Positions 22,202 through 44,357 of a stretch of DNA of 44,357 nt are shown one piece after another; within the stretch, counting starts at the first letter, position 1; the number at the start of each line of letters is the position of its first letter. The notes beneath the pieces are model-generated. The model saw nothing but the letters and a program-made list of their open reading frames with translations. It was not told the origin of the DNA and made no database searches. The stretch is from Candidatus Omnitrophota bacterium. GTDB lineage: Bacteria > Omnitrophota > Gorgyraeia > Gygaellales > Profunditerraquicolaceae. Made by a program: the position numbers and the translations under genes. The stretch spans positions 1 through 44,357 of the forward strand of contig JAQUME010000003.1 in the NCBI GenBank assembly GCA_028718245.1, read 5' to 3'.

Positions 22202-22210
22202 CCGTTTCCC

Positions 22211-25433: not shown

Positions 25434-25513
25434 TAAGGGGGGGGACATCCTTCCGATTAGCTTCAGAAACGTCCCTGCTTTGGATTCGAGAACGTCCCTA
25501 TTTATTAGATAAC
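25434..25513 (-). repeat. Right inverted repeat of RAYT element
   Basis: Reverse complement reads atctaataaatagggacgttctcgaatccaaagcagggacgtttctgaagctaatcggaaggatgtcccccc. Confidence 0.85.
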
Positions 25514-25531
25514 TGTCCAAACTGATTGATA

Positions 25532-25560
25532 TTGACATTGGTTTAATCTTGTAGTATACT
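25532..25560 (+). promoter_or_regulatory. Consensus sigma70-type promoter upstream of transposase-like gene
   Basis: TTGACA - 17 bp - TATACT; flanked by TGTCCAAACTG (25514) and TGTCCAATCTG (25577). Confidence 0.7.
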
Positions 25561-25595
25561 TTAATTGGCCCAAGAATGTCCAATCTGGAGGAAGC

Positions 25596-27257: not shown

Positions 27258-27288
27258 AAAACGCTTTCCCGAAGGCGCTTAAGTATTA

Positions 27289-27317
27289 TTGACATATCTA
27301 ATAATAGGTGTTATATT
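27289..27317 (+). promoter_or_regulatory. Consensus promoter of pilin array leader
   Basis: TTGACA - 17 bp - TATATT. Confidence 0.7.
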
Positions 27318-27332
27318 TAAGATGCGTTTAAA

Positions 27333-27463
27333 GGCGGCAGCGAAAAGCAATTCCGCTATGGAGGTAGCCGGATGCGCAAAGCCACGGGACGATGTTCGCC
27401 ACAATTTATGTTTCTTAATTTTCACGCTCAGGGTCAGGCGGGAACATTATCCGGGTTAGCTAA
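27333..27463 (+). ncRNA. GEMM/c-di-GMP-I-like riboswitch candidate (divergent)
   Basis: GCGAAAAGCAA..., hairpin TCCGCTA/TAGCcGGA, then gCGCAAAGCCACGGGaC, the hallmark GEMM segment; lies between promoter and terminator upstream of pilins. Confidence 0.55.
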
Positions 27464-27464
27464 A

Positions 27465-27507
27465 GCCGAAGAGTCTTTTAATGGACGTTAAGACTTCGGT
27501 TTTTTTG
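27465..27507 (+). terminator. Intrinsic terminator at the end of the leader (expression platform candidate)
   Basis: CCGAAGagTCTT...AAGACTTCGG followed by TTTTTTT. Confidence 0.8.
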
Positions 27508-27610
27508 TTTTTAGGCCGTTAAATAGTTTTAGAAAGTATTTATCAACTAGGCACACCGCGCTTATCGGATTTGCGCGGGTGTTGTCCTTACGGACAAGGA
27601 GGTGAGAAAA

Positions 27611-27784
27611 ATGTTAAGGAGCAGGAAAGCGCAGAGTACTCTTGAATACATCATCATCTTCACGGCGGTAGTAGGAGCGATACTCTTGGCAGCCAATACC
27701 ATCATTAAGCCAAAGATGAACAGTATGCTTGAGCACGTAGCCGGTGAAGCGGAGACCGCGGTCAAACACGTCAGTTTCCAATAA
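27611..27784 (+). CDS. Flp/TadE-like pilin (pilin 1)
   Basis: AAGGAGG RBS; MLRSRKAQSTLEYIIIFTAVVGAILLAANTIIKPKMNSML class III pilin-like N-terminus. Confidence 0.8.
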   Translation: MLRSRKAQSTLEYIIIFTAVVGAILLAANTIIKPKMNSMLEHVAGEAETAVKHVSFQ

Positions 27785-27811
27785 AGCGATCTTTTTAAGG
27801 AGGTGAGAAAA

Positions 27812-28150
27812 ATGTTAAGGCGCACAAAAGCACAAAGCACGGCAGAGTATGTGATCGTGCTGGGCCTGATAGTAGCGGCAGTTATAGCTATGCAGACCTA
27901 TGTTAAAAGGGGCTTTCAGGGCAGGATCAAGGACGCGGTAGATTATACCGGCCAGAGCGGACAAAGCGGAGAAGCCGTTTCTTTCACAACCAAGCAATAT
28001 GAACCCTATTATCTGGAATCCCAGTTTGCCAGCGAACGCAGCTCCACTGATACCGAAGAATTGGCAGAAGGCGGCTCGGTATCCAGGGCATCCGAAGAGA
28101 CAAGCACCAGGAGCGGCTCTCAGACGATATTGGAGCCGAAGACAGAATAA
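27812..28150 (+). CDS. Flp-like pilin with Ser/Thr-rich tail (pilin 2)
   Basis: AAGGAGG RBS; KAQSTAEYVIVLGLIVAAVIAMQTYVKRGFQGRIKDAVD. Confidence 0.8.
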   Translation: MLRRTKAQSTAEYVIVLGLIVAAVIAMQTYVKRGFQGRIKDAVDYTGQSGQSGEAVSFTTKQYEPYYLESQFASERSSTDTEELAEGGSVSRASEETSTRSGSQTILEPKTE

Positions 28151-28176
28151 AATATAATGAGGAGGAGGTGAGTTGA

Positions 28177-28497
28177 ATGTTTAATAAATTTAACCGGAAT
28201 AAGGCGCAGACAACCTTGGAGTACGCCATCTTGATCGGGGTGATCGTTGCCGGGCTTATCGCGATGCAGGTTTACCTGAAAAGAGGTTACCAGGGCAAAT
28301 TAAAGGAGAGCGCCGACAGCATGGGCCAGCAGTTCTCTCCGGGATATACCACAAGTAAATACACGATCACCAATACTTCTACGTCTACCGAGGAGCTTAA
28401 AGATAAGGTAACCGTATCTACGATCGGAAGCCAGGAGAGCCAAAAAACAGGCACGGAAGATGTCGCTGCTTCCGATAAAGAGTTCTGGTGGAAGTAA
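28177..28497 (+). CDS. Flp-like pilin with Ser/Thr-rich tail (pilin 3)
   Basis: GGAGGAGG RBS; KAQTTLEYAILIGVIVAGLIAMQVYLKRGYQGKLKESAD. Confidence 0.8.
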   Translation: MFNKFNRNKAQTTLEYAILIGVIVAGLIAMQVYLKRGYQGKLKESADSMGQQFSPGYTTSKYTITNTSTSTEELKDKVTVSTIGSQESQKTGTEDVAASDKEFWWK

Positions 28498-28529
28498 GAG
28501 CCGAGAGGGTAAATTTGGAGGTTTTGTAA

Positions 28530-29381
28530 ATGCCGATAAAAATATTCTTATTTTTAGTGGTTTTCGCCGGGGTCTTTTATCTTGCCAGCCTGGCATATCC
28601 TTTTTTTGAGGCGCTGATGGACCGCTGGCAGAGAAAGAGGATGGATAAAATTACCCCGAAACTGGACCGGATGTTCCTGGATATTCCTTTAGAGAAGCTG
28701 CTGCTGATCGATGTGCTTTCCCCCCTGGCCAGCGGGTTGCTGGTTTTTTTCATCAGCCGCAATATCTGGGCTGCTACGGCAGGGGCAGTTGTGGGGTTGG
28801 CTTTCCCTATCCTGATCATCAAACGGCTTGAGGCCATGCGCAGGCAAAAATTCGCCGCACAGCTTGTTGACGGGCTGATGATCTTATCCAGCTCTCTTAA
28901 GGCGGGATTAAGCCTCTTGCAGTCATTTGAGGAGTTGGTGCAGGAGATGCCCAATCCCATCAGCCAGGAGTTCGGCCTTGTCATCCGCCAGATGCAGATG
29001 GGCGTCTCTCTCGAGGAGGCGATAACCAAGCTGAAAGTGCGCATGCGGCTGGATGAGCTGGATATGGTCGTAACCGCGATGCTGGTGGCCAGGGAGACCG
29101 GCGGAGACCTTACGCAGACATTCTCCCGGGTAATCTACACTATCCAGGAGCGGAACAAGCTTATCGGCAGGGTCAAGGCGCTTTGCGTGCAGGCGAACAT
29201 GCAGGGGGTAATTATGTCGCTATTGCCCATTTTATTCGGGATATTCGTATATAAGGTTAATCCCGGTTTCTTCGATGTGTTCCTTAAGGATAATTTTGGA
29301 AGAGGGCTTATGCTTTACGCTATCATCTCAGAGATACTCGGCATTATTTTTATACGTAAATTGAGTAAGGTTGATATATAA
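28530..29381 (+). CDS. tadB: TadB-like pilus assembly membrane protein (T2SSF)
   Basis: LVDGLMILSSSLKAGLSLLQSFEELVQEMPNPISQEFGLVIRQMQMGVSLEEAI; multi-TM. Confidence 0.9.
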   Translation: MPIKIFLFLVVFAGVFYLASLAYPFFEALMDRWQRKRMDKITPKLDRMFLDIPLEKLLLIDVLSPLASGLLVFFISRNIWAATAGAVVGLAFPILIIKRLEAMRRQKFAAQLVDGLMILSSSLKAGLSLLQSFEELVQEMPNPISQEFGLVIRQMQMGVSLEEAITKLKVRMRLDELDMVVTAMLVARETGGDLTQTFSRVIYTIQERNKLIGRVKALCVQANMQGVIMSLLPILFGIFVYKVNPGFFDVFLKDNFGRGLMLYAIISEILGIIFIRKLSKVDI

Positions 29382-29394
29382 AAGGAGTATATAA

Positions 29395-30303
29395 ATGGAA
29401 TTAATCGTGGTGGTTTTACTTTTAGCGGTCAGCGTTTACCTCCTTATCCTGCAGTTCGGCTCCAAGGCATTCGGCTTGGAGAAGATGCGGCTGCCTGCCC
29501 AGGTATTTGACAGTAAAAAGGTAGAGATGGAGTTGAGCCAGGATAAGTATACGGTAAAGCCGGATAATACCTGGCTTCCCATTACTGCCAGGTTCAAAGA
29601 TTTTGAGAAGCGGATCCCCTTCTCCACCGAGGGGATAAGAAGGAGATTGATCAAGGCCGGCTTGCCGATGGGGGTATTGGAATTCCTGGCTTTTAAGGTA
29701 TTGGCGATTATTTTTGTCCCGGCTGTGGCTTTAATATTCCTTAGCGGTAATTTACCTAAGAATATGGTTTTTGCCGTTTCTCTGCTGGTGGGTTTCTTTA
29801 TCCCGGAGATGTGGCTGAATCAAAAGATAGGCAAGAGGCTGCACAGTATACGGCGCGACCTGCCCAACATAATTGACCTGTTGAACCTTTGCGTAAGCGG
29901 AGGCATGGACTTTATGCTGGCGGTAAACCGCGTGGTCAAGGATTTAAAACCCTGTGACCTGACCCGGGAACTGGGAGAGGTTTATCGTGAGACGCAGGTC
30001 GGTAAATCCAGGCGCGAGGCATTGAAGAATTTCGGCTGGCGGGTGGATATGCCTGAAGTGCATTCTTTCGTGCGCACGCTGATACAGGCCGACCGCATGG
30101 GCACGCCCATGTCGGAGGCATTGAATGTGCAGGCCGAGGAGATGAGAGTAAGGAGATTCCAGATGGGCGAGTCAATGGCATTGAAGGCGCCGATCAAGCT
30201 GCTCTTTCCCTTGTTTGCCTTCATTCTGCCGGTAGTTATGATCATTGTAGGAGGCCCGATAATCCTGCAGTTCTCGCGCGGGGGGATCAATTTCGGGTTC
30301 TAA
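29395..30303 (+). CDS. tadC: TadC-like pilus assembly membrane protein (T2SSF)
   Basis: IRRDLPNIIDLLNLCVSGGMDFMLAVNRVV...EVHSFVRTLIQADRMGTPMSEALNVQAEEMRVRRFQMGESMALKAPIKLLFPLFAFILPVVMIIV. Confidence 0.9.
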   Translation: MELIVVVLLLAVSVYLLILQFGSKAFGLEKMRLPAQVFDSKKVEMELSQDKYTVKPDNTWLPITARFKDFEKRIPFSTEGIRRRLIKAGLPMGVLEFLAFKVLAIIFVPAVALIFLSGNLPKNMVFAVSLLVGFFIPEMWLNQKIGKRLHSIRRDLPNIIDLLNLCVSGGMDFMLAVNRVVKDLKPCDLTRELGEVYRETQVGKSRREALKNFGWRVDMPEVHSFVRTLIQADRMGTPMSEALNVQAEEMRVRRFQMGESMALKAPIKLLFPLFAFILPVVMIIVGGPIILQFSRGGINFGF

Positions 30304-30307
30304 AGAG

Positions 30308-30457
30308 ATGAAAAGGCATATATCCGGACAAAGCGTCATAGAATATTTCGTGATCCTTACCTTGCTTATGGTATTGGTGGCCTCCTCCGGGTTTATAGAT
30401 ACAGTGCGCAACGCATTTTATGATTATTTCAACAGGGGTGTGGCGTATTTGAAATAA
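30308..30457 (+). CDS. Small pilin-like protein, 49 aa (pilin 4; absent from ORF track)
   Basis: ATG at 30308: MKRHISGQSVIEYFVILTLLMVLVASSGFIDTVRNAFYDYFNRGVAYLK*. Confidence 0.7.
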   Translation: MKRHISGQSVIEYFVILTLLMVLVASSGFIDTVRNAFYDYFNRGVAYLK

Positions 30458-30474
30458 AGAAGGGGGATAGGGGA

Positions 30475-30639
30475 ATGTTAAAGGTCCTTTATAACAGGCG
30501 GGCGCAGAATTTCCTGGAATATACTATGCTGGTAATAGTTATTGTTACGGCCTTATTGGCGATGCGCCAGTATATCCAGCGCTCCATGAACGCGCGCTTA
30601 AAGCAGATCCAGACGGAACTGAATGAATCAAAGAGGTAA
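30475..30639 (+). CDS. Small pilin-like protein, 54 aa (pilin 5; absent from ORF track)
   Basis: RBS-like agggggataggg; MLKVLYNRRAQNFLEYTMLVIVIVTALLAMRQYIQRSMNARLKQIQTELNESKR*. Confidence 0.7.
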   Translation: MLKVLYNRRAQNFLEYTMLVIVIVTALLAMRQYIQRSMNARLKQIQTELNESKR

Positions 30640-30649
30640 AGGGGTAAAG

Positions 30650-30988
30650 ATGAAGAATACCGCCCAGTCCTTAATAGAGTATGTGGTTCTTTTCAGCCTG
30701 ATAGTGGCTGCACTTTTCGGAATGCAGGTTTATCTTAAGCGGGGGGTCGCCGGCAAGATGAAGAGTTCAGCCGATGAACTAAGCGGCGGTTTTTTCTATT
30801 CTCCCGGGGCAACGCAAGCCACGACTACTATAGATACGACAACCGCGATAACAAGCAAATCATATGTTACAGATGTCGCTGGTTCCACCGATTACAAGGA
30901 AAGCATCATGGAAACCACATTAAAAAGCGACCGTACGACTGCCCGCGAAGAAAAGACCTTGCCTTTCAGCGCGGAGCCGCAGAGGTGA
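30650..30988 (+). CDS. Flp-like pilin (pilin 6)
   Basis: MKNTAQSLIEYVVLFSLIVAALFGMQVYLKRGVAGKMKSSADELSGG; RBS aggggtaaag. Confidence 0.78.
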   Translation: MKNTAQSLIEYVVLFSLIVAALFGMQVYLKRGVAGKMKSSADELSGGFFYSPGATQATTTIDTTTAITSKSYVTDVAGSTDYKESIMETTLKSDRTTAREEKTLPFSAEPQR

Positions 30989-30992
30989 TAAG

Positions 30993-31385
30993 ATGAAACG
31001 GGGAAGCTCGTTGATGGAGTATATGATAGTTCTGGGGATAATTTCCGCGGTCCTCTGGGGAATGAATGTTTATGTTAAGCGAGGGGTGCAGGGAAAGCTC
31101 AAAGACCTTACGGATTCATTTATAGGTAAGGAGCAGGAGACGGATATTTCGCCTACTGCCGAAACTGCCAGCAGCGCCAAGAGTGGATTTAGTTCAACCG
31201 CGGAGACCCAGGCATCCCTGGGCGGCGGCTGGAGTGTTTCAAGTTCGGACAAGATGGAGTATGAGGCGGAAAGCAAAATAACCGATACTGACGTGCCTTA
31301 TACATCAAGTGATCCTGTGCCTGCTGAAGAAGGGTATAGCGTTCCCGAACCGGCTAAGCCGCCGAAAGAAGGATCAGGCGGCTAA
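30993..31385 (+). CDS. Flp-like pilin with low-complexity acidic tail (pilin 7)
   Basis: MKRGSSLMEYMIVLGIISAVLWGMNVYVKRGVQGKLKDLTDSF. Confidence 0.78.
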   Translation: MKRGSSLMEYMIVLGIISAVLWGMNVYVKRGVQGKLKDLTDSFIGKEQETDISPTAETASSAKSGFSSTAETQASLGGGWSVSSSDKMEYEAESKITDTDVPYTSSDPVPAEEGYSVPEPAKPPKEGSGG

Positions 31386-31396
31386 AGAGGCAGGAG

Positions 31397-32170
31397 ATGA
31401 TTAAAATGATCTACACAAATAAGAAAGGACAGGCAGTAGCGGAGATGGCGATATTCGGCACCTTGATATTGCTTATCTTCGGAGTGCTGATCTCTTTCAT
31501 ACAACAGCTCAATGACCGGCAATATACGCAGATGGAGGCATTTCGCCGGGCATTGGAAAAGGCCAACTCCTACACTTCAGATGCTGATGACGGATCAGGG
31601 GCCTCTGTGCAGTACACCCTGGTGCAAAACAGACACCAGCTAAACCTCGGCGGCGGTTACCGGCAGGGCAGTAATGTTACTCAAACAGGTTCTGCCAATG
31701 TTTACTGGGCGATCCCTAAATCCCAAAAGGGCTCTTCGGCAGAGAGTTTGCTTGTATTCAAGATAAATGAAGATGAAGGGCAATTTGAATACAATGATTT
31801 TATTCCCGAAGCGCACAGAAGGATAGATGCCGATGGCGAGGAGAGGCCTACCTATTGGGTGCTGCAAACAGAAAATATGGCCACCGAATCGGATACGCTT
31901 TTCAGTGAAACGAATGTGAAAAGCGAAGATACTTTTGCGATCACCAATAAAAGGACTTCTAGGCTAAAGGATGATATTGTTACCGCTGTGCCGTACAAAA
32001 TAGTGGAAAAGAAAACCGGGGATAAGGACTACGAGAACACGGTAGAAGAGGGGATCCTGTATCAAGTGCGTCAGGGTGTCTATCTTGATCCGGAGGGCCA
32101 GTATAAATACAGCCAGGGTGCGGTAGGGAATGAAGTAACCAGGGAGAAGACATGGGTAACTCCATTTTAA
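31397..32170 (+). CDS. TadE-like minor pilin/pseudopilin with larger C-terminal domain
   Basis: KKGQAVAEMAIFGTLILLIFGVLISFIQQLNDRQYTQMEAFRRALEKA. Confidence 0.7.
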   Translation: MIKMIYTNKKGQAVAEMAIFGTLILLIFGVLISFIQQLNDRQYTQMEAFRRALEKANSYTSDADDGSGASVQYTLVQNRHQLNLGGGYRQGSNVTQTGSANVYWAIPKSQKGSSAESLLVFKINEDEGQFEYNDFIPEAHRRIDADGEERPTYWVLQTENMATESDTLFSETNVKSEDTFAITNKRTSRLKDDIVTAVPYKIVEKKTGDKDYENTVEEGILYQVRQGVYLDPEGQYKYSQGAVGNEVTREKTWVTPF

Positions 32171-32400
32171 AACGCGGCCAAAGCACGACCGAAATAGCAT
32201 TTGTTTTTGCGGGGATAGTGCTTTTGTTTGTGGCGATAATGCAGATATGGTTCTGGGGCAATAAGCAGATCGTGCAGCGCCAGAAAGCTTATAATGCCGG
32301 CAGGGTAACCGCCGGGACATCTTCGGATAGTTATACCCTGCAGTGGCCGGTTTACAAGCCGGAAGAACTTAAAGAGGAATCGGTTTTGAAAGGGCAGTAG
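32152..32400 (+). CDS. Small TadE/pilin-like protein
   Basis: LKRGQSTTEIAFVFAGIVLLFVAIMQIWFWGNKQIVQRQKAYNAGR; overlaps upstream gene. Confidence 0.7.
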   Translation: MGNSILKRGQSTTEIAFVFAGIVLLFVAIMQIWFWGNKQIVQRQKAYNAGRVTAGTSSDSYTLQWPVYKPEELKEESVLKGQ

Positions 32401-32425
32401 GGACTGTCCTTAAGGAAGGCGACAA

Positions 32426-33796
32426 ATGTTTACATACTTTCACGATCACAAAAATAAATACAACAAGGGCCAGCTTGCCCCCATCTATATCCTTATCCTG
32501 GTGATCGTGATCATTATGGCTATGGTCACGGTTAATTTATCCAAGGTAGCGATGGTCAAGACCGATACCTCAAACTCTGCCGATGCCGGGGCCATTGCTA
32601 CGGGCGCGATCATGGCAAATGCTTTTAACAGCGCGGCTGTGCAAAACAGCCAGATGATAACCACGTATTGGTCAGCCTATGCTTCGATAGCCGTTATGTT
32701 TTCATATGCTTTTGTTAAGCTGACTATGGCTTATACCTCTGCATCTTTTGCATTGGCTCGGGCAACATTTGCGTTGGGGTTGCAACCACCTTGTCAAACC
32801 TCCTGCGGAGCTTACGCGATTATGGAGGCAACCTACCTTCCTTTGACTTCAGCACTCTTAAATATAGCTTCGGTTATTACAACTATTTATGCTATCGGAA
32901 TCGCCATTCTTAGCGCCAGTGTGGTCCAGCATTATTATTATGCTTCTATCAGGAAGATGGCGATAAAAGGCAGAAGCTCTTCTATAAGGAATGGCCACGG
33001 GTTTGTTTTCTCCAACAGCGGCACAGGCCAAAAACTTAAGGCAGGAAGCCCTCCTGCCGATGCGGGGGATTCTTTGAAGAGGAACGGCTACAGGGACTCT
33101 TATGTTAATTTCCTGGATGGTATAGGAGATGACGAATATTATAATTATTCCTGGAAGGATGGGGAAGACAGGTCGCATTCCGTGGATTCAAGGGTACATA
33201 CTAATAAGGTAGAGGATTTTGAATTAACAGTGGCGGTTTTGCCCTCTTTTGCAGAGACAGCAGCTCTGGCTGCTGCCAAATATCTTCTTGGAACAGTCGT
33301 GACCAATTTAACTTTAGTGAAGGCTGACTATATAGCCGCGGAAGGTGAGTTTGCTTTGGCATGCGAGAATTTTCTATGTTGTAACCCCACTCCTGCAGGA
33401 GCTGCTTGTTGTATTGCCTGCGACGCTCTCGCATTAAAGGGGAAGGGGTGGTTAATCCCCGCCATAGCGAATAATTCTGCCGACCTTATGATAATGACGG
33501 GAGTCTTCGCTTTGCTAGTCGGCGCATTGGCAGGTTTATTGCCCGGCCCGACAATTACCGCCAGCGGGGAATGGGATGATGCCATGTTTTTTGACTGCTG
33601 GGTAAATGATATCAAGCATGACCACCTGGTGCGGGTTGATACAAAGCAAACTCATGCGGGAGGGGACCTCGGGCTTTGGAAGAGCAGTTACCCCGATACT
33701 GCCAGCTACGCGGTGGTTGATTTTTCGGGAAGAGGAACTATATTCCCTCCTAACCCAAGATATGGTTCAGACATAGTTGAGGTAGACAGTAACTAA
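32426..33796 (+). CDS. TadG-like protein
   Basis: NKGQLAPIYILILVIVIIMAMVTVNLSKVAMVKTDTSNSADAGAIATGAIMANAFN. Confidence 0.7.
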   Translation: MFTYFHDHKNKYNKGQLAPIYILILVIVIIMAMVTVNLSKVAMVKTDTSNSADAGAIATGAIMANAFNSAAVQNSQMITTYWSAYASIAVMFSYAFVKLTMAYTSASFALARATFALGLQPPCQTSCGAYAIMEATYLPLTSALLNIASVITTIYAIGIAILSASVVQHYYYASIRKMAIKGRSSSIRNGHGFVFSNSGTGQKLKAGSPPADAGDSLKRNGYRDSYVNFLDGIGDDEYYNYSWKDGEDRSHSVDSRVHTNKVEDFELTVAVLPSFAETAALAAAKYLLGTVVTNLTLVKADYIAAEGEFALACENFLCCNPTPAGAACCIACDALALKGKGWLIPAIANNSADLMIMTGVFALLVGALAGLLPGPTITASGEWDDAMFFDCWVNDIKHDHLVRVDTKQTHAGGDLGLWKSSYPDTASYAVVDFSGRGTIFPPNPRYGSDIVEVDSN

Positions 33797-33807
33797 GGAG
33801 GAGCAAA

Positions 33808-34710
33808 ATGTTTTTCAGGCTTAAAGTTGCGCAATTATTCGGCCTCATTCTTTTAGTGATGACCATAACCGCGCATCCTCTTTATTCTGCCTGGTGGGAT
33901 AGGAATACCATACCGCTTCCTTCGGGAACAGAGGAGGTATTCCAGGAGACAAGAAATATTTCGGGCACAGAGTTTGTGCTTAAGTATTATACCAATTCCC
34001 AGGATGCCAAAGTCATAAGTGATTTCTTCCGTTCAAAGCTTACTGCTTTGGATTGGAAGGAAAAAGAATTGTTAAAGGAAATGGCCCAGATACCCGGCTT
34101 AAAGGTTCCCGCCTCTGTAGAGGATATGCTGGCTTCGAATTCTATCTTTGAAAAAGGGGAGGAGACAGTTATGATAAACTTCCTTCCCCGGGGAGCGGTC
34201 CAGGACGGAAAGACCAGGTTTACTGTTGCACGGGGGAACACAGAGGCCCAAAAAAAGCCTGAGGAGGATGATTTTATACCCAGATTATCGGGCAAGCCCA
34301 AGCTTGATATTGCCCCGGTTTATCCTGGGGCAGCTTTGATCTCCCTGTCGGAGAATACCGGTTTTATGCGGGCAACCTATTTTTCAAAAGATGATATTGA
34401 TAAAGTAGGCGAGTTTTATAAGAGCAAAATGCTTAATTACGGCTGGTCCCTTGCAGAAGAGAAACCGCTTCAGAAGCTGGATTCAGGGGAGGTTGACCTC
34501 TCCAGCTTGTGCCCCGATTGCCCTAAGGATAAGAATATCCAGCAGGCAATCAAGCCTGTGGATATGGAGGTGCAAGAGCTTAATTTCTCCAACGAAGCGG
34601 GGGATGTATGTATTGTAGCCCTTGGAGTTACCGGCCCGAAAGAGGGGGTTGGAGACAAATTAAAGAATACAACCACTATTATGGTGCAATATGAAAAAGC
34701 CGGGAAATAG
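33808..34710 (+). CDS. Secreted protein of unknown function with two related domains
   Basis: Signal peptide LFGLILLVMTITAHPLYSA; repeated pattern VISDFFRSKLTALDWKEKE and KVGEFYKSKMLNYGWSLAEE. Confidence 0.65.
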   Translation: MFFRLKVAQLFGLILLVMTITAHPLYSAWWDRNTIPLPSGTEEVFQETRNISGTEFVLKYYTNSQDAKVISDFFRSKLTALDWKEKELLKEMAQIPGLKVPASVEDMLASNSIFEKGEETVMINFLPRGAVQDGKTRFTVARGNTEAQKKPEEDDFIPRLSGKPKLDIAPVYPGAALISLSENTGFMRATYFSKDDIDKVGEFYKSKMLNYGWSLAEEKPLQKLDSGEVDLSSLCPDCPKDKNIQQAIKPVDMEVQELNFSNEAGDVCIVALGVTGPKEGVGDKLKNTTTIMVQYEKAGK

Positions 34711-35590
34711 AGCGCAAACTTTTACTGAATACGCTATCCTTATAGCCGTAGTGGCGGCTGTCCTCTTTGGAATGAGGATATACATGGAGAGGGCTGTTCA
34801 GCAAAAATTCCGGGAGAGCGCGGATGTATTCGGCGAAGGGGAGCAATACGCCAAAGGGATTACCCAGGCTGCCTATAAAGATGATCCGGGCGCTCAACCG
34901 GTAACCCCTCCTTCCGGTAAGGATATCTGTCCTGGGGTTTTAAGTAAGGCAGAGGCCTTAGAGAATGAGATAGCGGATTTAAATGACCGCATAGCCTCAT
35001 TTGAGCAATCCAAGCGTGATTTAAATAAGTCGGCAGAGGATTTGAATACGCAGATCCCGGTATTAAGAGAACAGGCACGGCAGCTAAGGATACTTGCAGA
35101 CGGTTATGAGGCCCAGGCCGACGCAAAGGACGCCCAGGCTTTGGCTAAAAGGAACGAGGCAAAAGCTAAGAACGCCCAGGCGGATGGTAAGCAGAAAGAG
35201 GTTGATAACTACAAAAAGGATTTCCCGTTGTGTTTTACCTTTGGGTGCGGCACAAGCTGTGAAGAGGGGGACAATTGTTGCTGCGTGCTTAATGCCGTAG
35301 CAGCGTTAGAGGCTGAGATAGCCAGTTTGCGCAACGAAGCTGCTTTATTGAACGCCCAGGCAGCGGTATTGGAGGATGAAGCAAGAGCCCTGCATGCGAA
35401 AGCAGCCTCTTTGTACAAAGCAGCGGATGATGCCGACAGCGCAGCTAATGACCTGGTAGAAACACAGATCCCCAGCTTAGAAGACCAGGTTAAATCATTT
35501 GAAGAAGATATTGAAAAAGCCAAGAATGAGATTAAGCCAAAAGAGGAGCAAATAGAAAACTTTAAGAAGAATTATCCCAGTTGCTTCTAA
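34691..35590 (+). CDS. Pilin-like N-terminus fused to duplicated Cys-capped coiled coil
   Basis: NRAQTFTEYAILIAVVAAVLFGMRIYMERAVQQKFRESAD then long Ala/Glu/Lys/Asp heptad-like region; DNYKKDFPLCF and ENFKKNYPSCF repeats. Confidence 0.75.
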   Translation: MKKPGNRAQTFTEYAILIAVVAAVLFGMRIYMERAVQQKFRESADVFGEGEQYAKGITQAAYKDDPGAQPVTPPSGKDICPGVLSKAEALENEIADLNDRIASFEQSKRDLNKSAEDLNTQIPVLREQARQLRILADGYEAQADAKDAQALAKRNEAKAKNAQADGKQKEVDNYKKDFPLCFTFGCGTSCEEGDNCCCVLNAVAALEAEIASLRNEAALLNAQAAVLEDEARALHAKAASLYKAADDADSAANDLVETQIPSLEDQVKSFEEDIEKAKNEIKPKEEQIENFKKNYPSCF

Positions 35591-35601
35591 GGAGAAGAAA
35601 G

Positions 35602-36675
35602 ATGTTAAGTAAACCAAGAGGATTGACATTCAGGCTTATTTCAGCTTCCTTGATATTTTTCTTCGCGGTTTCTTTTACCTTTCCTAAAGAATCACTGGCT
35701 TATAGAAGCAGAGATGGCGGAGGGGAAATCGCGGAATTTGATTTCGGCAAATGGGCGTTAGGTACCGCGGCAGGCGTGGTCTCTTCTACTTTAGGCAGTG
35801 CTATTATTTCAGGGGTAGGAGGTTCTTTGGGTTGGACACCAGGCGGTAGTTTTATGGAGTCTCTCTCCAGCTTAAAAGGAGCTGATACCTGGGCAAGCAA
35901 TTTTGTAAACAGCACGGCGGTAGGCCAGGTGCAGAACGCGATAGGAATGATGGGTAACTATTATGGGTGGGACCCGGGTTCTACCATTTTTCTAAGCTCG
36001 GTAGCAGGAGGGGTTGTAGGAGGAGGGTTAGCTCCAGGACATTTTGGCAGCTCGCTTGGCAGCGGTGTAGGTGTTTCCCAGAGTTTCAACGGCTCGTTAA
36101 ACTGGCTTAAAGGTGTGGGCATAGGCCTTGTTGAGGGAAGTGTTGAAGGCGCCATACTTATGAGCGCGGCGGATAAAAAAGGTCGTATTGATCCCATAAT
36201 AGGTAATGTAGCGAATTTAACCGGAAGCCTTGTTACAGGCGGCCTGGTAGGGGGCCTCACGGGTCCTACAGGAGAATTCAGTTTTGGGAACATGGGAGAT
36301 TTTAATCTTGCTAAGGCAGGCCAGGAAGCCATGCGCGTCACATTAAGAAGTATCCCCTCAGCCGGGCTTAGCATGGGGGTCCAGTCCATTACCAGAAGCA
36401 TGGATAAACAGGATGCTTATATCATCAAAAATGCCTTTTCAGGGGCTTATTATATGATAAATGTCCCCACAGGCTATTTAGTGGATAGTAAGATTGTGCC
36501 CTCTGTGTTTGGGGAGAGGTCGCGGGTTCGTATTAAAAACACAGAATTACCATCACCGCTATTAAAAGAAACTTTAAATCCAAGTTCCAAGATTCCTTCA
36601 GTGTCAAATTATAGCCAGTCAAATCCACCAGGATTTTCTCTTGAGAAAAGAATTGAAGATATAAGCACTAGATAA
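35602..36675 (+). CDS. Secreted Gly-rich protein of unknown function
   Basis: AAGGAGAAG RBS before ATG 35602; signal-like LISASLIFFFAVSFTFPKESLA; GVVGGGLAPGHFGSSLGSGVGV and related Gly-rich stretches. Confidence 0.65.
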   Translation: MLSKPRGLTFRLISASLIFFFAVSFTFPKESLAYRSRDGGGEIAEFDFGKWALGTAAGVVSSTLGSAIISGVGGSLGWTPGGSFMESLSSLKGADTWASNFVNSTAVGQVQNAIGMMGNYYGWDPGSTIFLSSVAGGVVGGGLAPGHFGSSLGSGVGVSQSFNGSLNWLKGVGIGLVEGSVEGAILMSAADKKGRIDPIIGNVANLTGSLVTGGLVGGLTGPTGEFSFGNMGDFNLAKAGQEAMRVTLRSIPSAGLSMGVQSITRSMDKQDAYIIKNAFSGAYYMINVPTGYLVDSKIVPSVFGERSRVRIKNTELPSPLLKETLNPSSKIPSVSNYSQSNPPGFSLEKRIEDISTR

Positions 36676-36978: not shown

Positions 36979-37008
36979 TTGACAAGCACAAAAATTATGT
37001 GTTATACT
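36979..37008 (+). promoter_or_regulatory. Consensus promoter of riboswitch 2
   Basis: TTGACA - 18 bp - TATACT. Confidence 0.7.
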
Positions 37009-37024: not shown

Positions 37025-37125
37025 TAAGTAGCGAAAGGGTAAACCCCGAGTAATCGGGGGGCACAAAGCCACGGATCCGAAGATCAACTCAAAGTAACAA
37101 GATAAGGACAGCCGGGCTGCCGAAT
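37025..37125 (+). ncRNA. Cyclic-di-GMP-I (GEMM) riboswitch
   Basis: AGCGAAAGGGTAAACC, P2 CCCCGA-GTAA-TCGGGG (GNRA loop), GGGCACAAAGCCACGGATCC, GGACAGCCGGGCTGCCG. Confidence 0.88.
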
Positions 37126-37167
37126 ATCGGAAGGAAGCAGGATATTTGACAACTCGGTTTTTATTTA
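37121..37167 (+). terminator. Candidate expression platform/terminator of riboswitch 2
   Basis: CGAATATC/GATATTTG stem followed by actcggtttttattt. Confidence 0.45.
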
Positions 37168-37299
37168 ATATCTTATTAAGTAGTTTTAGAAACGTTTTAT
37201 TAAATTAAAACCACATGTCCTTAAACAACAGAACAAAGATCATCAAAGCAGCTGCTGGGGTAAGGGGAAAACTGTTTTTCGCCTTTTATACATTAGGTA

Positions 37300-40200
37300 A
37301 TGACAATGCATAAAAACCCTGAACCAAAAAACCAGGCAGAATCAAAACCAGGCCCGCAGGAGAAAACACGTTTTCAATCCAGCTTCAAGGCCTGGATCAG
37401 AATCGTAGCTTTCATAGTAGTTGCGGTCTTTCTTCCGGAGCAGGCAGCTCAAGCCGTAGAATATGATTGGCGCGTGCTTTGGAGCAAACCCGGAACACTC
37501 ACCTCATACTCCCCGAACTTAATAAAAGACCCGCGCCAGTTAGACATAGCAGTAGCAGTCAGGAACATCCTCAAAGACATTTCAGGCAAACCCGTAACCG
37601 CAATAAAGATCTCCCCCACTTTAACCATCAATTTAGAAAAGCCGCTAAACATCTCCAAGCAAAGGATAGAAGAGATCTACAATTGGCTGGCGGGAAGGCC
37701 CTGCGGCGCAAAGGCGCTTTATGATTTCTTAGCTTATAAAGGCGTTGCCGCGCAGGAGCAGGATATCGCGGTTATGGCCTTGACCACCGACATTTTAAGC
37801 GGGGTCCTTAAGCCGGAAGGCAACCCGAAGATCATCAAAAGCTCCCTTTATGCCTTATCCCGCGCCTCTGAATTCTTCGGCGCCAAGCTTTACCCGGTAA
37901 AATTTGATTTAAAGCAGGGCCTGACACCGAAAGGTGCTGTCCCCGCGTTACCCTTCATCGCTCATTTCAAAGCCGAACACTACATCCTGGTAACCCGCAT
38001 AACCGATGACAGGGTTTATTACGCGGATGAGCACAAAGAGGAGTTTCTGCCCAAGGATAAATTCTTAGATAAATTCAGCGGATACGCGCTGGTTTCCTCG
38101 GTCCCGGAGCAGGCGCAACTGCTCTCTGATAAAGAAGCGCAAGGAATAAAGGGCGCTAATGAATATGGCTATCAGGAAGATACGCCTGAATGGAATGGCG
38201 ATTGGGGTAATTATGACTATGGTTTTGATGACGGTTCTTATGAAGCAGCAATCGCGCAGGATCCTTATTATAACAGTGCAGCTTTCACGAATTACAACAT
38301 ACCGGATACCTATGGTTATAACTCTAACTTCAATCCTCCCTCTATTTCAAATTACTCCAATTACAATGTAAATTACAACGACGCGATAGCAATAGCCCAA
38401 AACGGAGGGACGATTTCGATTCCCACCCCAGTAGGCTCTACCGTCTTCTATAATGACTCAGGTATGGTTAAGATGGAGGTTTACAATGATGACCTGCGTA
38501 CAGTCAACGTAAGCCAGGTGACCGACAATTTAACGATCCCGCTGGCACAAGGAACCTGGGATAACAACAATAATTTTAGTATGCATGATATCGGGGCAGC
38601 AGGCGGGAATACTTTTGCCGCGTCAAATTTTCAAAATCCGCTTATGAACAATACCGTTAACTCAAATATAGCGTTTGATCCCAACGGCCCCACGATCGCA
38701 AGGGTTAAAAACGGGGAGACCATCGGCCTTTCCACTCCTACGGGATCTTTAGTGCTTTATCAGGATAATGGGATCACCAAGATGGAGAATTATAATGATG
38801 ACCTACACACAGTCAGTGTAAGCGCCGTGACCGACAACTTGACGATCCCGCAGGCCGGGAATATGGGAAATATTATTGAAGACGGAAGCAATAAGTGGGC
38901 ATGGAAAGTGGTTAATAAGGACATATATGTAGCCCAATTGGATGGAGGGGGCAACATCGGTGAGTTTAATCCTATGGGTAGAAGGACATTGTGGGGGCTT
39001 TTTTCGGGAGGGTTCTATCAGGATGTTTCCGGACCATTTAATCCGTCAATAGGCGATGAAGCTGCGCAAAAAATATTATCTACCGTATATGGTCCGAATG
39101 TTTCAAGCCGGCTTGATGATGTTGATTTCTCCGTAGGTATTTCAGGCCGTGAAGGGCAGGTTTATTTACACACATCCGGCGCGCCAAATCCCCATTATAC
39201 CGTTGTTTCCTCAAGTGATAAATTTGACGCGTTAAGTTTTGCCGTTAATAATCCTAATGGAGTCAGCGGAAGAGAATATTTCAATCCCGCAAGCGGCCAT
39301 ATTTTAGCAGAAACTATCGGAAGGGGTTTGTTTGATTCTCCAAATAGCACTTTAAGCGGTATTGCCCCCATGGGAGAGGCCATAGGGCAGTCGATGTATG
39401 GCCAGTTTACCACAACAATTGATTGGAATAACGGATATGTATCTTTTGCCGGCACAAAACCTGACGCGCTGTTGCAGGTAGTAAACGGCGCTCCGCAAAT
39501 GACTGCCGCGATAAATTCGGCGTGGAGCAGAGACAACAATGGGAAACTTTTAGAAATAGCCGGTCCTAATGGGACAAGCTTAAATAATGTCTTCTTAACT
39601 CCGGCAAAGGCATTCTTTGTTTCAGGTGGAGGCGGACCCGCAAAATCTTCTAAAGAGTTATTTGATGGGGTCTATAGTTTTGATGCCCAGAGTTTTAGGG
39701 GCCAGGGTCTGGATGCGATAGGCATTGATCCGTCGAGAGGTGGATCTTTTAATTTTATGGGCACCCGGCCGCACGCTACTTTAGGGGACTATGTGGAAAA
39801 TATCACAGGCTCTCCTACTCTTTACATGGTGCAAACAGATAGGGGGCTGAAAGAGCGCGTGCTTGATAACGCCCAATGGATGAAAATCAACAGAGGAGAC
39901 GGAAATTTAGTTATTGGCGCAGGAGCCAATCAGCCGGCATCACTTAGATTTGACGGTGTGGCGCAGGGAGAAACAATTAGCTTTAGAGAATCAGCGTCTT
40001 TTCTCGGAGGATATAAAGAAATTCTCCATAAAAATGTTTCACCCGTTCAAGAGTTAGTAGCTGACTATGGGCTGGGCAGAAGCTCAGCAAAGTTTACAGA
40101 CGGTTCGCATGACTTGATTGGAAGTGATGGAACGGTAAAGAGTTTTTCTTCCTACGGGGAATTAATAAACTTTTTAGATAACGGCCAGGTAGCGGCCCGT

Positions 40201-43200
40201 TCATTCTTTACAGAGAAGCCGGAAAGGGATGGCCCTAAAGATTCCGGTAAACAATCAGAACGGATATTAAACCCTGTTTTTGCAAACGCGCATATCAAGG
40301 TTGCAAACGCGAGAGGAGAAAAAGGAATATATTTTACTGCTACAGGCCTGGAATGGGGGTCTTTATTGAAATATGGCAGTACAGAATTTGAGCCGGAAAT
40401 AGGCCAAGGCACCCGTTTTTCCAGTATTAATCCAGATGAGAAAGTGAGGATAGGCAATAGTGATTGGCAGAATCTTTCCCAAAACCAGATCCGGGGAGGA
40501 GGTATTAGCCATGTCGATAATACTGGTTTTATTATTAACGAATCCGGTAAATCTCTGCCCATTATAAGAAACTACGAGGTAAACAATAAAATAGTGACTC
40601 TGGGAATTACAGATGGCGGCTCGAATTCTACAAGCAGCGCGCAAATCAACGGCATCTTAAATGGAAAAGTTGTTTCATTTGTTAGTGCCGCGGATCCCAA
40701 AAAAATTCAGTTAAGCGCTGATAAGTTAATATATGACGAAACAGGGGTGGTGATAGGGCGTCAACTTATAGATCCTCTGGTCCGCGAAAAAAGCAATATT
40801 AAGATTACAACCGGGACTCAAGCCCTGGATAAACTGTATTACAACGGCAATGCCTTGATGATCAGCGGAACCAACGGTTATATAGATGCTGTTGGGTTTA
40901 AGCCAGTAGAACGCAATCCAAATTCTCCTGCTTTGACGGAAAAAGAAGGCCCTGTAGAGTCAAATTTAAAGGTGACAAATATCCCGGATGGCTTGAGATT
41001 CAGTTCCATAGGACAAGACCCGACAGGGGCTCCTCTTGTTGCAGAATTTGAATTGGATTGGGCAAGAAGCTCATTACGCTCTACCTGGCAAGAAGCAGGG
41101 GCGCAGAACTGGATAACTGAACAAACCGCTATATTTGGAGAAACCTGGCAGCCGCACCCAGGCATAGAAACCGGACTTGTTTATTTTCAGGAATATCCGG
41201 GCAAAGATGATAAGGTTTCTGTTTTACCCGCGGGCGGCGCAGCCGAATTCACTACAGATCAATATCTAGAGGGGTATAGAATCAAGGGGACATATTCCGG
41301 AGCAAAGACATTAGACAGGACTGCTTTGGCCGAGAGATTAACAGGGGCGATTCAAACACAATTAGGGATATTTCAAAAAGAAGCAGCTAAGGCAAGCGCT
41401 AACGGCCAAGACCCGTTAGCTTCTTTAGAAAAGCTCCAGGCAGATAAATCAAGAGGCATCGTATTCCAAAAAGAGGAATTACAAGATCTTATAAAAGGCG
41501 ATAAAACCATAGCCAGTATCGCTGCCGCGGCTTTTGAAAGAGAGAATGCGGGAAGATTAGAGCAAGGTATCAGCCAGAATTTTAAAATGTCAGCCACAAT
41601 GAGTTTGGCAGCCGGTTTCTACCCGTGGGTAAGCAGGGATGGAAGCATATACGGTGACAGCGTTGACATAAGAAGCGGCGTGAGCCTTGAGGGAGTCAGC
41701 TCTGCCGATTCTACCGTGATCGTTACCACTCATGATGGACGTAAAATAGATCTATCCCAGTCCGGCATGCCGGTCAGCTACAGCAGCGGACAATTCAGGG
41801 TTAATCCTGCGGATGGGCTTAACTGGTTTTCTTTCCCGCTTAATACCGGCGGCGGCGAGGCGCCAAAACGCGAAGGAAATGTAACCGTAAAAGCCACTGA
41901 GTCCCGGTTAGTAGATAATTATTCTTCCTCCAACGGCATACCTGTAAATGCCAGCCTGCCGCGGTATATAGGCAATCCTTTGCTTTATGGCCAGGACAAG
42001 GTGATCAACCTAAATCTGGGAGCAGCGCAGCCGAATGTGATGAGTTTTAAGGGATATGATTTTGAAGGAAAGGTTCCTTTTTATGTCGGCGGGGAATTGG
42101 TAGGAGTTGAGGGCAGATTAACATTTTATGAGGATGGCGAGAAGAAAGGCCAGCCCAATTTAAGCCAAATCAAGAGCGTAGAATATCAATATAATCAGCC
42201 GGGATTTTTAATTGAAAGAAGAGAAGGCGCCAGCCCTGTTTTTATTCCTGCTGTGCATCTGGCAGGAAGCACTTATACAAACATGAAATTGGGGGATGAA
42301 AACCCCAGGTTTGTCCCTGCCGGAGCAAATCCCGATATAAACAACTATCTTAAGGTAAGCGAACAGGCCTTTTTCTTCAAAAACGGCTTACAAATAGCGG
42401 ATGTCATTAATAAAAATGTTTATGATGCAAATTCAGGCCTATTTAAAATAAGCATTGATACCAAAGGTGCCCCGATCGACTTTTTCAGCCGAAATGAAGT
42501 TCCGCCTACCCAGCGCCAGGAGCCTAACTTTGATCAGTTTATGAAAGAATCCATTATGACAGCACTGGGCGCACAAATGTTATCCTTCGAAGGCAGCAGG
42601 TTACAATTAGCGGATTTAGTGACTCCTTCGCTGTTAGCGAGCCGGGTAGATGAACAGTACCATACATCTATGAATATACCAAACGCCTCGCAATACCGTG
42701 TAAGCGGATATGATAAAGACGGCAGGGTTTTGGGCTTTGCTTATACCGGCAGCGGTAAACTTGGTTTTGGCGCCGGATTCGGCAACGACCTTATTCCTTT
42801 AGCAGGCACACCCGGTTCGCATTTTAAAGTTGACAGCGGAGAGTTCCAGGTATACAGGGATAAGCCATTTATTTATGCCGGGAAAGAAATTTCAGGAGGA
42901 CTGGAAGAGAATTTTATCGGCCAGCGTTCTTTAACTTATTCCGGCAGCCAGCCGTACAATGTATATATAGATCCTGAATATGGGACCTTTGCCAGCGCCG
43001 GAACGCGTTACAGGGAAGAGCGCACCTTCAATGGAGAAGACATTGGTAATAATAAAATTTTTACCGGGATAAGCGTGGTAGAAGGCAAGCATAAGACATA
43101 CTTCGAGAGAGAGAATACAAACTGGTTGAAGCATGGAATACGAAATGAAACAGGCCTTGATTCAAGGACCTCTGAACTGGTAAACAACGGGAAACCTACC

Positions 43201-44357
43201 CTTACGCCCTTTAGCCGTAAAGAATATATAAGCTTAGAAAGGGAGGGGAATAAGATATCTTCAGATAGTTTTCTTGAAGGGATTGTCCGTTTAATGCCCG
43301 AGAAAGGAAGAGTGGATTTCGTAAATTATGCCGTTGATCATCTGTATTTGTTCCAGAATAAATATCTGGTAGGCAAAGGCAATTACTGGATGCCTCATTC
43401 GACATTTGAGTCATATGGCGGCGGAAGCGGGAGTGAGGTTAAGGCAGGCCCCAGCGATGCGTTTCAACGTCCGAATCAAGCAGGAGGGGTTACCTATACC
43501 GGAGACCGGTTAGCTTTTAATATAGATTGGCAGGGCACATCATTATCGCTGCCAACAGCCTATTTTTGGGCGCCTGGTTCAACTATAAGGTTAATGGCCG
43601 GAGACAGATTTGTCAGCAACATTGAGATTAACGACGCCAAGGGTTTGATCACATTCCAAAAAGAATCAAGCATAGTTGATGTAAGAGGAGATTCAACCAT
43701 ATTTTATGCGCAGCAAACATCTCCGGACGGCAAAACAGTAACAGTGCCTTTTTATGAATCCGGGCACTGGTCGAATGGGACCTCAACAGATGGCGTTTAC
43801 TCCCAAAGTCCCGCCCCTAAAGGTAATCCCCAAGCCGACCTCATTAAATATATTTACCAGGGAGAAATGAGCGGCCCGCTTGCGGTTAAGTTTACTCAAG
43901 ATGCCGTGGCTTACGGGATGATACCTCAAGAGGAAAGTTTCCGCTATCAGGGCTATCAGAAGCTTGTGAATAAGACAACCTTTGTTCCCGACGCGGAGAA
44001 AGGGTTTATTACCGGAAAAAGCAGAATTGTGCCTGATCTTGAGCAAAATCCGAACTCTTTAACTTTAGAAGCCAAGATACGCGGCGGCGGTTTTCGCCAA
44101 GGATGGAATTATATATATGGTAAAGAAAATAGCATTGTGGGTTGGGGTCCCATTATCACAGACGGAAAGATTGGCAATGTGGGTCCCAAATCTCCGCTGG
44201 GCCTGGCTTTATTAACCCGAGGGCTGGAAATCTCAGGGGTTAGAAAAGGAAGCAGTGGAGAAGCCGATACCTATAAAGTAGACGCGCAGACATTAGCTTA
44301 TAATTTTGGGAATAAAGCTATAAATTTTGACAACCATCTTTTGCAGTTTAACGGGGT
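37300..44357 (+). CDS. Giant secreted/surface protein with N-terminal C39-peptidase-like domain; 3' end outside window (start 37300 or 37306)
   Basis: Frame 1 spot-checked open in many lines up to the window end; N-terminal TM/signal AWIRIVAFIVVAVFLPEQAAQA; RPCGAKALYDFLAYKG...EHYILVTRITDDRVYYADEH C39-like; no + strand ORF of track covers it because it lacks an in-window stop. Confidence 0.88.
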   Translation, partial: MTMHKNPEPKNQAESKPGPQEKTRFQSSFKAWIRIVAFIVVAVFLPEQAAQAVEYDWRVLWSKPGTLTSYSPNLIKDPRQLDIAVAVRNILKDISGKPVTAIKISPTLTINLEKPLNISKQRIEEIYNWLAGRPCGAKALYDFLAYKGVAAQEQDIAVMALTTDILSGVLKPEGNPKIIKSSLYALSRASEFFGAKLYPVKFDLKQGLTPKGAVPALPFIAHFKAEHYILVTRITDDRVYYADEHKEEFLPKDKFLDKFSGYALVSSVPEQAQLLSDKEAQGIKGANEYGYQEDTPEWNGDWGNYDYGFDDGSYEAAIAQDPYYNSAAFTNYNIPDTYGYNSNFNPPSISNYSNYNVNYNDAIAIAQNGGTISIPTPVGSTVFYNDSGMVKMEVYNDDLRTVNVSQVTDNLTIPLAQGTWDNNNNFSMHDIGAAGGNTFAASNFQNPLMNNTVNSNIAFDPNGPTIARVKNGETIGLSTPTGSLVLYQDNGITKMENYNDDLHTVSVSAVTDNLTIPQAGNMGNIIEDGSNKWAWKVVNKDIYVAQLDGGGNIGEFNPMGRRTLWGLFSGGFYQDVSGPFNPSIGDEAAQKILSTVYGPNVSSRLDDVDFSVGISGREGQVYLHTSGAPNPHYTVVSSSDKFDALSFAVNNPNGVSGREYFNPASGHILAETIGRGLFDSPNSTLSGIAPMGEAIGQSMYGQFTTTIDWNNGYVSFAGTKPDALLQVVNGAPQMTAAINSAWSRDNNGKLLEIAGPNGTSLNNVFLTPAKAFFVSGGGGPAKSSKELFDGVYSFDAQSFRGQGLDAIGIDPSRGGSFNFMGTRPHATLGDYVENITGSPTLYMVQTDRGLKERVLDNAQWMKINRGDGNLVIGAGANQPASLRFDGVAQGETISFRESASFLGGYKEILHKNVSPVQELVADYGLGRSSAKFTDGSHDLIGSDGTVKSFSSYGELINFLDNGQVAARSFFTEKPERDGPKDSGKQSERILNPVFANAHIKVANARGEKGIYFTATGLEWGSLLKYGSTEFEPEIGQGTRFSSINPDEKVRIGNSDWQNLSQNQIRGGGISHVDNTGFIINESGKSLPIIRNYEVNNKIVTLGITDGGSNSTSSAQINGILNGKVVSFVSAADPKKIQLSADKLIYDETGVVIGRQLIDPLVREKSNIKITTGTQALDKLYYNGNALMISGTNGYIDAVGFKPVERNPNSPALTEKEGPVESNLKVTNIPDGLRFSSIGQDPTGAPLVAEFELDWARSSLRSTWQEAGAQNWITEQTAIFGETWQPHPGIETGLVYFQEYPGKDDKVSVLPAGGAAEFTTDQYLEGYRIKGTYSGAKTLDRTALAERLTGAIQTQLGIFQKEAAKASANGQDPLASLEKLQADKSRGIVFQKEELQDLIKGDKTIASIAAAAFERENAGRLEQGISQNFKMSATMSLAAGFYPWVSRDGSIYGDSVDIRSGVSLEGVSSADSTVIVTTHDGRKIDLSQSGMPVSYSSGQFRVNPADGLNWFSFPLNTGGGEAPKREGNVTVKATESRLVDNYSSSNGIPVNASLPRYIGNPLLYGQDKVINLNLGAAQPNVMSFKGYDFEGKVPFYVGGELVGVEGRLTFYEDGEKKGQPNLSQIKSVEYQYNQPGFLIERREGASPVFIPAVHLAGSTYTNMKLGDENPRFVPAGANPDINNYLKVSEQAFFFKNGLQIADVINKNVYDANSGLFKISIDTKGAPIDFFSRNEVPPTQRQEPNFDQFMKESIMTALGAQMLSFEGSRLQLADLVTPSLLASRVDEQYHTSMNIPNASQYRVSGYDKDGRVLGFAYTGSGKLGFGAGFGNDLIPLAGTPGSHFKVDSGEFQVYRDKPFIYAGKEISGGLEENFIGQRSLTYSGSQPYNVYIDPEYGTFASAGTRYREERTFNGEDIGNNKIFTGISVVEGKHKTYFERENTNWLKHGIRNETGLDSRTSELVNNGKPTLTPFSRKEYISLEREGNKISSDSFLEGIVRLMPEKGRVDFVNYAVDHLYLFQNKYLVGKGNYWMPHSTFESYGGGSGSEVKAGPSDAFQRPNQAGGVTYTGDRLAFNIDWQGTSLSLPTAYFWAPGSTIRLMAGDRFVSNIEINDAKGLITFQKESSIVDVRGDSTIFYAQQTSPDGKTVTVPFYESGHWSNGTSTDGVYSQSPAPKGNPQADLIKYIYQGEMSGPLAVKFTQDAVAYGMIPQEESFRYQGYQKLVNKTTFVPDAEKGFITGKSRIVPDLEQNPNSLTLEAKIRGGGFRQGWNYIYGKENSIVGWGPIITDGKIGNVGPKSPLGLALLTRGLEISGVRKGSSGEADTYKVDAQTLAYNFGNKAINFDNHLLQFNG

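Follow-up and report, generated by a model that had tools for sequence, protein, structure and literature searches.

Introduction

Peptidases of the C39 family usually act in the cytosol on ABC transporters. The leader consensus is L(-12)xxxE(-8)L(-7)xxxxG(-2)G(-1), with a helix spanning positions -10 to -4 (PMC6959990), and GG, GA and GS are all accepted as C39 cleavage sites (PMC6363468). Giant open reading frames (ORFs) have been found in 77 of 116 Velamenicoccia genomes, where they are described as poorly conserved and containing few domains, and adhesion is the function usually proposed for them (PMC10066038). The published giant protein of V. archaeovorus has 39,678 aa and has been linked to predation, and its gene stands beside a Tad locus at 12382-29832 (Seymour 2023, PMC10066038). 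Here we describe a gene of this kind from a Candidatus Omnitrophota genome. The window, meaning the whole stretch of 44,357 nt that was analysed, is an entire contig (C3) of a metagenome-assembled genome (MAG) of 1.20 Mb in 99 contigs. Its features are collected in Table 1.

Table 1. Features of the window, in order of position (nt); res, residues of the giant protein
Feature	Position	Strand	Basis
REC-GGDEF response regulator (GGDDF), candidate c-di-GMP source	14615..15550	-	domain search, relatives
HisKA-HATPase sensor kinase adjoining the REC-GGDEF gene	15559..17034	-	domain search
FIST-domain sensory protein	17036..18259	-	domain search
Tad/Flp pilus locus: RcpC, secretin, TadA, TadB/C, Flp-like pilins, TadE/G	19710..34710	+	Pfam; pilin-like translations
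364-aa secreted-type protein, encoded after the Tad genes and before the riboswitch	35581..36675	+	no Pfam match; kept in several relatives
Sigma-70-like promoter, TTGACA-18-TATACT, TG before -10	36979..37008	+	consensus scan, 11/12 matches; consensus only
c-di-GMP-I riboswitch aptamer; G20, A47 and J1/3 C kept	about 37028..37125	+	Rfam RF01051
Predicted intrinsic terminator sharing CCGGGCTG with the aptamer 3' side: CCGGGCTGCCGAATATC ... GATATTTGACAACTCGG + TTTTTATTT	37112..37166	+	MFE fold, covariation
AT-rich conserved leader stretch CTTAnTAA..agTTTtA.AAA...TTTA	37173..37205	+	alignment of 47 leaders
Conserved leader motif TGGGGTAAGGGG, ~33 nt before ATG	37256..37267	+	alignment of 47 leaders
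Giant gene, 5' part, 2352 codons	37300..44355	+	stop-free frame ending at contig edge
Signal/anchor segment, res 29-52, conserved FLPEQ.A.A motif	37384..37455	+	AF2 helix, hydropathy
C39 cysteine-peptidase domain, res ~120-265	37657..38094	+	Pfam, AF2 + Foldseek, catalytic columns
C39 catalytic residues C135; H227; D243	37702-37704; 37978-37980; 38026-38028	+	aligned catalytic columns
Double-glycine-leader-like site LSDKEAQGIKGA, res 275-286	38122..38157	+	pattern in 58/63 loci; consensus PMC6959990
~56-aa repeat, two copies, also in G017	38383-38550 and ~38692-38859	+	homology search

A Giant Gene Truncated by the Contig End

A sequence-only reading of this DNA had claimed a giant frame, open to the last base and missing from the ORF list. 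Full translation of the frame bears this out, as no stop occurs between its start and the last complete codon; the chance of an open frame of this length, computed from the base composition of the window, is about 10^-57. Because the window is a whole MAG contig, the gene is truncated and runs off the contig end, and its absence from the ORF list is accounted for by the list containing no frames with open ends. The visible part measures 7056 nt, the length criterion of the family being >20 kb. The possibility of a misassembly, raised in the same reading, is unlikely, since the giant start follows the Tad genes in numerous independently assembled genomes, as well as in the complete chromosome of V. 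archaeovorus. The 3' remainder was not found elsewhere in the gene's own MAG; the search returned a 657-codon frame aligning to the lytic transglycosylase (SLT) region and a short weak match. The third-position GC content of the giant gene is 0.445, compared with 0.57 in 13 neighbouring genes.

The gene is a member of the known Omnitrophota giant-ORF family of the V. archaeovorus type. In a scan of one genome per species, the first ~290 residues of its product matched 73 loci, giving a comparison set of 74 genes (the window and 73 N-terminal relatives). These loci come from MAGs named Omnitrophota, Omnitrophica, Velamenicoccus, Gygaella or Aceula, and the few that carry another phylum name or none are probably mislabelled or unlabelled MAGs. 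Of 58 relatives searched, 28 genomes had matches; nearly all of these were confined to residues 1-470, and many stand at the start of open frames of thousands of codons, the longest having 42,913. Pairwise comparisons showed the same division: the first ~280 residues are conserved, and the bodies have little in common.

The match in V. archaeovorus LiM (NZ_CP019384) lies at 29832-30614, within a 39,687-codon frame that corresponds to the published giant. The earlier claim of giant ORFs known from Omnitrophota and tied to predation (PMC10066038) is supported by this homology at the N-terminus. The two genes have in common the N-terminal module, a place right after the Tad genes, few known domains and, probably, enormous length. 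In contrast to the window gene, no riboswitch was found next to the V. archaeovorus gene, and the adjacent riboswitch is a trait of a subset of the family. The nearest relative on a long contig is G010 (isolate STD1_209). Its giant extends for 14,735 codons from 181553 to a scaffold gap of 100 N, beyond which a 37,731-codon stop-free frame continues on the same strand (G010:C3:24193-181553). With only the scaffold gap between them, we infer that the two frames form a single gene of at least ~52,000 codons. One relative (G026:C48:46588-72000) has its giant split into frames of 3935, 1830 and 2710+ codons; the first break falls within a tandem repeat (AIGVSEK) and is either a frameshift error or a real phase change.

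The c-di-GMP-I Riboswitch and Leader

A c-di-GMP-I riboswitch aptamer precedes the giant gene, in agreement with the earlier claim that the gene has its own riboswitch. It scores 61.8 bits with RF01051 (gathering cut-off 35), 58.9 with RF03167 and 92.8 with our own model (R1), which was built from 16 such aptamers; a promoter match ends 20 nt ahead of it. Searched over 955 kb, the model gave 48 matches, all on the coding strand, corresponding to the window and 47 of the 73 relatives. All but one of the relatives' aptamers (46 of 47) are no more than ~550 nt away from the matched start, nearly all ending 125-550 nt before it, and the exception (L077) lies 7.3 kb upstream. No riboswitch adjoins the gene in the other 26 relatives, some of which are truncated upstream.

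The aptamer has the fold and ligand-contact letters of the c-di-GMP-I (GEMM-I) riboswitches RF01051/RF03167. It differs from typical members of the class in its conserved use before giant genes and in the long conserved leader, with further motifs past the terminator. G20 and A47 are conserved wherever the aptamer motif is readable, and because both are kept, c-di-GMP rather than 3',3'-cGAMP is the expected ligand. GG occupies positions 20-21 in the window aptamer and in at least 43 of the 48 aptamers; in the few others a simple pattern matched elsewhere or gave CG. An A20 aptamer specific for 3',3'-cGAMP was suspected from an A one base 5' in many relatives and was rejected, as the published numbering gave G20. 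The 'GGC' variant label of RF03167 was taken as sequence likeness only, since A47 is kept in the window.

The predicted intrinsic terminator overlapping the aptamer is well supported. Its fold (MFE -47.5 kcal/mol, z -2.9) forms at the expense of the aptamer, whose 3' side, CCGGG[CT]TG, can pair with a segment that ends in CGG and precedes a T-run. Seven or eight of the eight terminator pairs are retained in 39 of 47 leaders. In an alignment of 38 leaders, 88.7% of cells are paired, compared with 21-48% when the alignment is slid by 1-3 columns, and the same leaders contain 27 double changes versus 13.2 in shuffles. Since the aptamer and the terminator have bases in common, a bound ligand should block termination, which would make this an ON switch in which c-di-GMP turns on transcription of the giant gene.

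Past the terminator, phased TTA/TAA-type elements occupy the AT-rich stretch before the ATG (37173-37205), and the leader motif TGGGGTAAGGGG occurs in exact form nowhere else in the genome. The possibility that the 5' UTR encodes a conserved leader peptide (GVRG...) was considered and rejected, as indels and near-invariant third positions point to a nucleic-acid motif. Two loci (G005:C90 and G014:C14) retain the riboswitch, the terminator and the GGGGTAAGGGG leader without a giant start after them; their sequence after the break is identical, which we read as the giant gene having been naturally lost or replaced.

The N-terminal Module: Anchor and C39 Peptidase

The signal or transmembrane (TM) segment and the C39-like domain of the sequence-only reading were both recovered. 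The former is seen at residues ~29-52, where W32, A37, F44 and A52 are invariant in 66 aligned modules; its predicted orientation is N-in/C-out. The giant N-terminus contains a C39 domain, matched by Pfam PF03412 over residues 182-266 (E 9.6e-7, 29.1 bits vs a cut-off of 22). The C39 part of the AlphaFold model mostly has a pLDDT of 85-97, and its top Foldseek matches are the C39 domains of LahT, PCAT1 and ComA (TM(target) ~0.7, prob 1.00); a search of the viral fold library matched nothing. C135 is present in 66 of 66 aligned modules, H227 in 65 of 65 and D243 in 50 of 66, the Cys and His being invariant across divergence down to ~25% identity.

The domain thus has the fold, the Cys/His and mostly the Asp of the PCAT/AMS transporter peptidases, and the spacing from His to Asp is 16 both in PCAT1 (H99-D115) and here (H227-D243). 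It differs from them in being predicted to lie outside the cytosol and in having no ABC transporter attached: the TMD/NBD fusion typical of PCAT/AMS transporters is absent from the window protein in Pfam and NCBIfam searches. A third difference concerns the oxyanion Gln, which in PCAT1 is Q15, six residues before the catalytic Cys (PMC6959990). All 66 modules have Trp129 at this position instead, and because of this invariant replacement the activity of the domain is uncertain.

A Leader-Like Site in Cis

At a fixed spacing after the C39 domain, the protein contains the double-glycine-leader-like site LSDKEAQGIKGA, which fits the leader consensus at every position except -7, where Ala replaces Leu. 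The pattern hydrophobic(-12)...[VI](-4)xG(-2)[AGST](-1) is present in 58 of the 63 loci with enough sequence, 43 of the 58 having E(-8) and 53 having A/S(-7); the remaining five loci have GQ, GN or GK in place of GA/GG/GS. Information reaches 3.4 bits at -1 and amounts to ~1.3 bits or less from +1 on. Nearly all giants, up to 42,912 residues long, have one such site, while shuffling expects 0-1.3. Positions -10 to -6 are predicted to be helical (AF2), as in PCAT1/LahT substrates. The arrangement L-12 E-8 ... G-2 [G/A/S]-1 is that of PCAT/AMS substrates; the differences are Ala/Ser rather than the published Leu at -7, and a location on the same chain as the protease, after it. These features suggest that the C39 peptidase cuts its own chain after A286 and frees the giant body, although a domain boundary, in place of a cut, could also account for the end of conservation after the site.

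A related arrangement is known from polymorphic toxins that carry a ZU5 or PrsW autopeptidase at the N-terminus, where it is likewise thought to free a very large surface filament (PMC3482391). The peptidase family is a different one, and, unlike in those toxins, no C-terminal toxin or immunity gene was identified in the window.

The invariant Trp129 would also fit a C39 domain that does not cut but binds the leader-like helix as a pseudo-substrate, serving as a folding or export dock like the C39-like domain (CLD) of HlyB-type transporters, and proteolytically dead C39-like domains that tether unfolded substrates are known in type I secretion (PMC6363468). We consider such a dock rather unlikely. 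CLDs are defined by lost proteolysis, yet the Cys of the giants is absolutely kept and, together with the His, invariant even at ~25% identity; G(-2) and a small residue at -1 are also retained, as cutting would require.

It is distinctly improbable that the domain is a weapon, an outer-side peptidase acting on peptides or peptidoglycan cross-links of other cells, with the GA motif merely part of the fold. Its surface setting, the SLT domain of a relative and the C39-like toxin domains (Tox-PL-C39) of polymorphic toxins (PMC3482391) speak for this reading, but the toxin versions are C-terminal (PMC3482391), whereas the C39 of the giants is N-terminal beside a membrane anchor, and the leader-like site in cis would be left unexplained. 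In a further reading, the protein is simply a giant adhesin, its riboswitch is there by chance, its C39 domain is vestigial and the giant itself is free of c-di-GMP control. This would suit the usual proposal for giant ORFs (PMC10066038) and a body mostly Gly/Asn-rich without known domains, but it is very improbable given where the riboswitch lies and how the terminator covaries across dozens of genomes, and given the invariant catalytic residues of the C39 domain.

The Body of the Giant Protein

In the 2352-aa window protein, Pfam and NCBIfam found C39 as the sole domain, and hydropathy indicated no TM segment past the anchor. The body had been described from the sequence as Gly/Asn/Tyr-rich. 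This holds for Gly, which accounts for 10-14% of most 200-aa blocks from 401 on, and for Asn (up to 14% at 401-600), but not for Tyr, which reaches 10% at 201-400 only. Searched against 129 genomes of the order, residues 461-2352 gave just the ~56-aa repeat and one weak match, and a single-sequence AlphaFold model of residues 541-1040 (pLDDT 32) was uninformative on the beta-rich character suggested by the earlier reading.

The bodies of the relatives contain recognisable domains. TPR, SLT and peptidoglycan-binding domains were found, the latter two in the giant of the closest relative, which is in line with cell-wall attack. Relatives' bodies also have Gly-zipper, REC and GNAT, as well as URO-D, SLOG and HEAT domains, and the distal part of the G010 giant includes starch synthase, histidine-kinase ATPase, REC, methyltransferases, radical SAM with B12-binding, and others. 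Enzyme and signalling domains of this cytosolic type, of which there are many, are not what one would expect in a plain adhesin. Clusters of TM segments are present far along the relatives' chains.

Tad Pilus and a Candidate c-di-GMP-Making Neighbour

The pilus locus noticed earlier in the neighbourhood is of the Tad type (RcpC, secretin, TadA, two T2SSF, TadE/G); of the 56 relatives with enough sequence, 41 have TadB/C upstream of the giant and on its strand. The order in which the giant gene comes after the Tad locus and the kinase/REC-GGDEF module is conserved. The earlier picture of a giant surface-type gene with its own riboswitch by a pilus locus is supported by both the aptamer and the Tad synteny; the regulated weapon or adhesin that it suggested stays hypothetical, and it included neither a C39 domain probably acting on its own chain nor a putative transcriptional ON switch. 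The N-terminus of the 364-aa protein, FPKESLA, resembles the FLPEQAAQA of the giant. The REC-GGDEF protein is 84-95% identical in relatives of the same genus and 70% identical in another family, and its gene and the giant start are 20-29 kb apart in the seven genomes, among those searched, with both on one contig.

Tad pilin genes, instead of the giant, are preceded by a riboswitch of this class in two genomes (G040 and G042). As judged from these putative switches, the pilus-giant locus appears to be under c-di-GMP control in more than one place. The one other such riboswitch of the window's genome (G000:C80:1873-1952) stands upstream of a secreted BNR/Sortilin-repeat protein. Relatives hold up to 11 riboswitches of this kind (c-di-GMP regulon).

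Proposed Mechanism

We propose a c-di-GMP-switched, self-cutting Omnitrophota giant surface protein deployed beside a Tad pilus, and regard this proposal as a whole as reasonably likely. Judging from synteny, the FIST/histidine kinase/REC-GGDEF module probably senses a signal and raises c-di-GMP. The bound aptamer would take the terminator strand, allowing read-through into the giant gene. The protein would be exported by its N-terminal signal/anchor which, following the positive-inside rule, should place the C39 domain at the outer face of the inner membrane. There, the peptidase may recognise the leader-like helix 275-286 and cut after Gly285-Ala286, either in cis or between neighbouring chains. 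The cut would free the giant body from the anchor-protease module, and internal TM helices further on may keep the body in the envelope. Once released, the highly divergent ectodomain of thousands of residues would act at cell contact beside the Tad pilus, with some versions bearing putative peptidoglycan-lytic domains; these features suggest a role in cell contact or predation. Against the proposal, a wholly outer-side protein would not need the distal cytosolic enzyme domains, C39 peptidases usually act in the cytosol, the oxyanion Gln and the Leu at -7 are replaced, five loci deviate from GA/GG/GS, and 26 of the 73 relatives have no riboswitch beside the gene.

Conclusions

Giant ORFs, C39 domains and c-di-GMP-I riboswitches are each known, and it is their combination at the front end of one gene that appears to be new. 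In the literature searched on Omnitrophota giants, a C39 peptidase, an adjacent leader-like site and a c-di-GMP riboswitch are not described, and no paper was found pairing Omnitrophota with c-di-GMP riboswitches or peptidase C39; preprints and subscription papers were thinly covered, and the novelty is provisional.

More broadly, and only tentatively, an uncultured clade may possess c-di-GMP-switched single genes of up to ~50,000 codons, each encoding a self-cleaving 'C39 plus own leader' fusion whose mega-protein is deployed with a Tad pilus against other cells. If this is true, a peptidase of peptide-export processing would have been relocated onto its own substrate, outside the cytosol, and the freed mega-protein would join surface, cell-wall-lytic, signalling and metabolic-enzyme domains. 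The poor conservation and few annotated domains of Omnitrophota giant ORFs had left their function open; a conserved front module, a predicted cut site, a named riboswitch ligand and a conserved, putatively c-di-GMP-making neighbour would provide a testable handle on these giants.
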